Assembly (NCBI RefSeq): GCF_002305895.1
Contig: NZ_CP022203.1
Location: forward strand, 124,001-188,000
DNA from: Corallococcus macrosporus DSM 14697
Lineage (GTDB): Bacteria > Myxococcota > Myxococcia > Myxococcales > Myxococcaceae
Length of the DNA stretch: 64,000 bases
Reading direction: 5' to 3'
The notes under the pieces were generated by a model. That model was not told the DNA's origin. It ran no database searches and saw nothing but the letters and a program-made list of their open reading frames with translations. The translations under genes and the position numbers were made by a program. Positions within the stretch are counted from its first letter, which is position 1. Each line of letters begins with the position of its first letter. This document shows, piece by piece, positions 13,377 to 14,343 of this stretch.

Positions 13377-13769
13377 TCACGGGGGTGTCGATCGCCGCCG
13401 CTGTCGCTTGCTCCTGGCGAGCGCGGAGCGAAGCATCTCTCGGCGCTGTTTCTCCGCATCATCGGGCGGGTGTGGCGCCTCGAGCCGAGGAAACGTCAGC
13501 GCGATCTTCCCGCCGAACGGGGCAAAGACCTTGTTGAGCGTCTCGAGCGTCGGGTTCGCGTCGGGCTCGTCCTCGAGCTTCGCGATGACGCTGGTGGAGA
13601 GCTTCACCACGCGCGCGAAGGTCTTCCGGTCCATTCCCAGCATCGTGCCGCGAAGGATTCTCGAGGCATCCCCGAGGTTGAGCTCACCGATGGCGACCAT
13701 TGCGGCGAGCTCTTCCATGAGCGCCTTCCGTTCGAGCGCGGTCAGCCGGGCGATGTCGGCGCGTTTCAT
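13377..13769 (-). CDS. HipB/XRE-like helix-turn-helix antitoxin
   Basis: This is a 130-residue protein. DRKTFARVVKLSTSVIAKLEDEPDANPTLETLNKVFAPFG (about 47-86) is an XRE-type helix-turn-helix, similar to antitoxin HTH proteins. The tail is very basic. Its ATG overlaps the stop of the upstream gene (ATGA at 13766-13769). Three copies of AATCC-N8-GGATT precede the operon; E. coli HipB binds TATCC-N8-GGATA, so this protein is the probable repressor. Unlike hipBA, the regulator is the last gene of the operon here. Confidence 0.7.
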   Translation of the reverse strand: MKRADIARLTALERKALMEELAAMVAIGELNLGDASRILRGTMLGMDRKTFARVVKLSTSVIAKLEDEPDANPTLETLNKVFAPFGGKIALTFPRLEAPHPPDDAEKQRREMLRSALARSKRQRRRSTPP

Positions 13770-14029
13770 AGAAGCCCCCACGTGCGGAGGCGTTTCTCGG
13801 TGCCGCGGAGGTCGAGCCCCGCGAAGTCCAGCGTTTCGCCCGGCAGTCCAAGGTCGGCGAGGAGCTCGGGGAGAAGACGAAGGCGCAACGCGAGGTCGTG
13901 GAGGCCCTCGCGCAAGGCGGCCGCATCTCGACCGAAACTTTGGAGGAGCCCACCCCAATCGACTTCTCCGCCAGCCTCGTACCCTTCCCAGGTCGTGGTG
14001 CGGGTGATGCCGTCGAGGTCCATCCTCAT
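13766..14029 (-). CDS. Small protein of unknown function, coupled to the HipB-like gene
   Basis: 87 residues starting MRMDLDGITRTTTWEGYEAGG, then an amphipathic leucine-rich helix (LHDLALRLRLLPELLADLG) and ending EKRLRTWGLL. It overlaps both neighbours by ATGA, so all three are translated as a unit. No family is recognised. Given the operators and the antitoxin-like partner, it may be the toxin or part of a split toxin; this is inference only. Confidence 0.5.
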   Translation of the reverse strand: MRMDLDGITRTTTWEGYEAGGEVDWGGLLQSFGRDAAALREGLHDLALRLRLLPELLADLGLPGETLDFAGLDLRGTEKRLRTWGLL

Positions 14030-14208
14030 CGGCGCACCGCTGGCCAGGCTTCCTCCGGGATGACGTGTTGTAGTGCGCTCAACGCCGCTTGATGTTTCTG
14101 GAAGGCGGCCGTCTCGTCGCGCGACGTCGAACCGGGGGAGCCAGAGGCTCGGGCCCGAAGGGCCTTCATGAAGCGAGAGTCCCTCTTGCGGAATCGTTTC
14201 GAAGCCAA
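14026..14208 (-). CDS. Putative first small gene of the HipB-operator operon
   Basis: About 60 residues, very basic at the start (SKRFRKRDSRF) and ending QHVIPEEAWPAVRR; the stop overlaps the next ATG (ATGA 14026-14029). The start is uncertain because the frame is open upstream. In another frame, the downstream gene's own frame also stays open through this stretch and looks protein-like (KALAALGFETIP...), so one frameshifted ancestral gene is an alternative explanation. Low certainty. Confidence 0.35.
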   Translation of the reverse strand: MASKRFRKRDSRFMKALRARASGSPGSTSRDETAAFQKHQAALSALQHVIPEEAWPAVRR

Positions 14209-14242
14209 GCGCCGCGAGCGCTTTGTAGATGGAGCTTCATAT

Positions 14243-14343
14243 AATCCATTATAATGGATTCAAGAGGCCCAAGCCGCGGCTTTAATCCGTCATGCCGGAT
14301 TAAGTTCGTCAGAGCGCGCCCTGTTAATCCTTTATAACGGATT
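14243..14343 (-). promoter_or_regulatory. Three HipB-type operators, AATCC-N8-GGATT
   Basis: Three copies of AATCC-N8-GGATT lie at 14243-14260 (a perfect 18-bp palindrome), 14284-14301 and 14326-14343. They are 41 and 42 bases apart, about four helical turns, so bound dimers would face the same side of the DNA. The half-site and the 8-base spacer match the layout of E. coli HipB operators (TATCC-N8-GGATA). They lie directly upstream of the three-gene operon on the minus strand and could also affect the MacB-like permease on the plus strand. Confidence 0.8.

Follow-up and report, generated by a model that had tools for sequence, protein, structure and literature searches.

The region between positions 13377 and 14343 of the window (the whole 64,000-nt stretch of the Corallococcus macrosporus DSM 14697 genome that was analysed) raises the question of whether it encodes a new kind of toxin-antitoxin operon or the remains of a known one. 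An operon lies there on the minus strand, heading towards 13377, in which frames of 60 and 87 codons precede a gene for a helix-turn-helix (HTH) protein, the frames being joined by ATGA overlaps and preceded by three palindromes of the form AATCC-N8-GGATT. The initial annotation took this for three coupled genes under HipB-style operators, either a new toxin-antitoxin layout or a decayed relative of HipBST. The explanation favoured here, with a probability of about 0.95, is a hipAB toxin-antitoxin module of reversed gene order in which hipA is best read as a pseudogene and HipB and the operators are intact.

The palindromes were confirmed at 14243-14260, 14284-14301 and 14326-14343, spaced by 41 and 42 bp, and are the only copies in the window, where shuffled sequences give a mean of 0.00. 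Read on the minus strand, the distal copy is AATCCGTTATAAAGGATT, the middle copy AATCCGGCATGACGGATT and the proximal copy AATCCATTATAATGGATT, a perfect palindrome with TATAAT at its centre. The proximal copy stops 2 bp short of the native ATG of hipA, a position relative to hipA that matches the intact relatives, in which two or three ATCC-N8-GGAT palindromes, ~42 bp apart, end at the hipA start. This array of three predicted sites ahead of the operon, as in hipAB modules, fits, in layout, the consensus of the Escherichia coli HipB operator, TATCC-N8-GGATA (PMC3376134, PMC3920265), and the proposal of HipB-type operators with a HipB-like regulator held up. It may be speculated that the TATAAT inside the proximal palindrome is a −10 element, in which case the mRNA would be nearly leaderless; a scan of the locus for sigma-70 consensus promoters found none. 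The search of the whole 8.97-Mb genome returned two further AATCC-N8-GGATT copies only, each single (C1:262002-262019 and C1:5096855-5096872), and these lone sites might also be bound by an orphan HipB.

The HTH gene (hipB, 13377-13769, minus strand) has an open, full-length frame of 130 codons, and its product, an HTH antitoxin and predicted repressor, is 78–85% identical to HipB of close relatives, with 80–85% for the closest among them. The HTH_3 and couple_hipB profiles match it weakly, with scores below their curated cut-offs, as would be expected of a divergent HipB. Its start overlaps the hipA stop through ATGA, and in the relatives the HTH gene directly follows hipA with the same overlap, which, judging from this comparison, is ancestral.

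The two small frames have no match in Pfam, NCBIfam or PADLOC, and their nature was resolved only by whole-genome comparison with relatives. When the 87-aa product was searched against 61 genomes, it was found in three other Myxococcus genomes (M. xanthus AM003, M. vastator AM301 and M. eversor AB053B), and in all three the match is the C-terminal end of an uninterrupted HipA frame, 435–447 aa long, with 79–85% identity. Homologues of this protein do stand beside an HTH gene, but as the C-terminus of HipA. As separate genes the small frames are not conserved in relatives, which carry instead one intact frame of ~430 codons; in that sense the comparison goes against them. An intact HipA of 429–442 residues occupies this locus both in these three genomes and elsewhere in the Myxococcaceae; the operator array, with its 42-bp spacing, precedes it, and hipB comes next through the same ATGA overlap. 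HipA of AM003 (442 aa) matches the Pfam profiles of both the HipA_C domain (PF07804, E 2.8e-22) and the N-terminal domain of HipA (PF13657, E 1.6e-4), and it carries GGDSPK at 175, HYLVKF at 206, GNSDNH at 327-332 and DFAP at 352. The Gly-rich loop and the catalytic and metal-binding motifs of a HipA kinase are all present in the intact relatives. When HipA was compared with the PDB by phmmer, the only matches were marginal ones to HipT-like kinases (E 0.04), and AlphaFold, given five close HipA homologues, produced no usable model (mean pLDDT 36). An adjoining ABC-permease gene is common to the window, M. xanthus AM003 and M. vastator, and one further genome (G019) has an empty site there.

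Compared with HipA of AM003, the window retains four collinear pieces (Met15 onwards, ~229-270, ~286-313 and ~353-442) in frames 2, 3, 1 and 3. Alignment at the DNA level with three relatives (G023, G016 and G013) reveals three deletions, which together removed about 63% of hipA; they measure 632, 56 and 124 bp and have junction overlaps of 4, 1 and 5 bp, respectively. The native start survives at 14224-14240 of the minus strand (ATG AAG CTC CAT CT), truncated by the 632-bp deletion, and its ATG (14240-14238) now opens a frame of only 24 codons, ending at 14166. Remnant I (14105-14227, minus) corresponds to HipA residues ~229-270 in the AM003 numbering and is 88–93% identical. Remnant II (14031-14105, minus), residues ~286-313, lies in a different frame and has the 56-bp deletion at its 5' end. 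Remnant III (13766-14035, minus), residues ~353-442, holds the HipA C-terminus with its stop; the 124-bp deletion at its 5' end is flanked by a 5-bp GCGCC microhomology and took away the catalytic loop and the DFAP motif.

The small frames follow from these rearrangements. The 87-aa frame (13766-14029, minus), which shares the ATGA overlap with the HTH gene, is contained in remnant III. The 60-aa frame (14026-14208, minus) has its TTG start within remnant I, whose proper frame it does not share, and spans remnant I out of register and then remnant II; its overlap with the 87-aa frame arose because a deletion junction placed a stop beside an internal hipA Met codon. Hence the three frames and their ATGA overlaps exist as annotated, but two of them are frame-shifted pieces of one hipA. 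The absence of a HipA kinase, which had also been pointed out, is true of the present state of the locus, although both small frames are remnants of that very gene. The deletions have eliminated the beginning of the kinase core, the P-loop/ATP-binding region, the GGDSPK and VKF motifs, the catalytic Asp330 and the DFAP metal motif, and since the frame is broken as well, no kinase can be made.

A new three-gene system with two small effectors and the regulator in last place would account for three short, ATGA-joined frames behind strong operators. It is, nevertheless, extremely improbable, because the two small frames derive, out of register, from a single HipA gene that close relatives still have intact, and the 60-aa frame starts in the wrong frame within remnant I. 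Nor is a regulator in last place new, as this is the published reversed hipAB order (HipA clades VI/VII; HipE/hipEB, clade IX; Gerdes et al. 2021, PMC8262856), which arose several times. In those modules, too, a HipB-type HTH gene comes after a kinase that is homologous to HipA and has an N-terminal subdomain; the window copy differs in having lost the kinase. The E. coli hipBA operon shares with the window a HipB-type HTH regulator and several ATCC-N8-GGAT palindromes before the operon, and with the window's relatives the HipA kinase domain; however, its gene order is the opposite, it has four TATCC/GGATA sites against three AATCC/GGATT sites in the window, and the window hipA is a pseudogene. 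A split kinase of the HipBST type (HipS, HipT and HipB), whether intact or decayed, is suggested by the presence of more than two frames beside a regulator that resembles HipB, yet it is very improbable: the extra frames of the window derive from deletions, the kinase motifs are in none of its pieces, HipA of the relatives is undivided and includes the N-terminal domain, so that separate genes for an N-subdomain (HipS) and a kinase core (HipT) are not found, and the gene order is unlike that of hipBST (PMC8262856). Of the initial suggestion of a decayed HipBST relative, the decay and the Hip kinship therefore stand, but the ancestor, as read from the relatives, is a two-gene hipA-hipB module with full-length HipA. 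The deletions could also be assembly errors that conceal a hipA intact in the organism. This too is very unlikely, given that the genome is a single contig rated 100% complete, and that three separate deletions of up to 632 bp, in a remainder at least 7–12% diverged from relatives, are atypical of sequencing errors.

Intact antitoxins beside broken toxins have been documented elsewhere, for example Caulobacter ParD with a parE pseudogene and the Shigella yacB frameshift (PMC7354431); the window resembles these cases in its arrangement and differs in the toxin family. As both the reversed hipAB order and orphan antitoxins were already published, the locus is a decayed case of a known type. The proposed model is that in the ancestral module translation began with HipA, a Ser/Thr kinase of the HipA fold that would have been toxic, and continued to HipB through the ATGA overlap. 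Together with HipA, its co-repressor, HipB would have occupied the two or three ATCC-N8-GGAT operators, ~42 bp apart, which would cover the promoter. Three deletions in the window lineage then destroyed hipA while sparing HipB and the operators. As homology to HipBA suggests, a HipB dimer on each palindrome would repress its own operon, and would do so alone once HipA was gone. Most likely the orphan HipB at present does no more than repress its own operon, as a transient step in the decay of the module.

Across 96 Myxococcaceae genomes, an intact hipA-hipB pair is present in 10 (G023, G016, G013, G064, G083, G085, G113, G116, G118 and G066), and three, not counting the window, combine damage in hipA with a hipB of full length. 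One of these, G092 (L100 1719-3265; G092:C1:1899018-1900564), has lost HipA residues 281-331 in frame, including the catalytic loop and Asp330, leaving a kinase-dead HipA of 388 aa and an intact hipB; this HipA could possibly act as a co-repressor without toxicity. In G088, hipA has two gaps plus frame changes, and in G119 (L107 2494-3236; G119:C147) HipA is reduced to its final ~49 residues, still in frame and overlapping an intact hipB, a configuration suggesting that translational coupling may preserve this scrap. Fragments of both genes are found in G031. The breakpoints differ among the damaged loci, so the losses appear to be independent. Distant HipB relatives, 45–48% identical, occur at L110 2929-3306 (G069) and L108 919-1287 (G119:C262), with no hipA detectable alongside. 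C. macrosporus itself encodes a further three hipA-family genes that are intact (L113 1067-4208 and L114 1967-3409; ~C1:19.5-22.7 kb and C1:122.8-124.2 kb): one belongs to a hipBA pair in the standard order, one resembles yjjJ/HipH, and the third lies just outside the start of the window. None of them is near an ATCC-N8-GGAT site.

It could be argued that selection maintains the orphan HipB, which would then serve as a regulator or give anti-addiction protection from HipA arriving from outside. In favour of this, the window has kept HipB and its operators intact, at least three other loci (G092, G088 and G119a) likewise pair a damaged hipA with a complete hipB, none of the 96 genomes showed an intact hipA that lacks hipB, and anti-addiction by orphan antitoxins has already been proposed (PMC7354431). 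However, hipA makes up ~77% of the operon, so that all four single-gene breaks would fall there by chance with a probability of ~0.35 (0.77^4), which is not significant, and an ordered, toxin-first decay was dropped as an explanation because target size alone accounts for the pattern. Moreover, the private changes on the window branch, synonymous/nonsynonymous, are alike in hipB (11/7) and in the C-terminal hipA remnant (10/4), which means that the decay is too recent to show HipB retention. The simplest reading of these counts is that hipA decayed recently compared with the divergence from relatives. The 87-codon remnant might keep a role, for example in translational coupling, but recent decay explains its low private amino-acid change equally well. 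Selection for the orphan HipB is therefore rather unlikely. Still more doubtful is the broader idea that Myxococcaceae repeatedly disarm hipAB, deleting the kinase core and keeping HipB and its operators, because an orphan HipB, perhaps with a coupling C-terminal scrap of hipA, would serve as an anti-addiction factor or regulator.

The apparent new toxin-antitoxin layout is, then, a false lead, explained by three deletions in a gene of a known type. The Myxococcaceae also offer a small natural series, with intact pairs, a kinase-dead copy that is still in frame and copies with heavy deletions, for following what becomes of an antitoxin once its toxin is lost.
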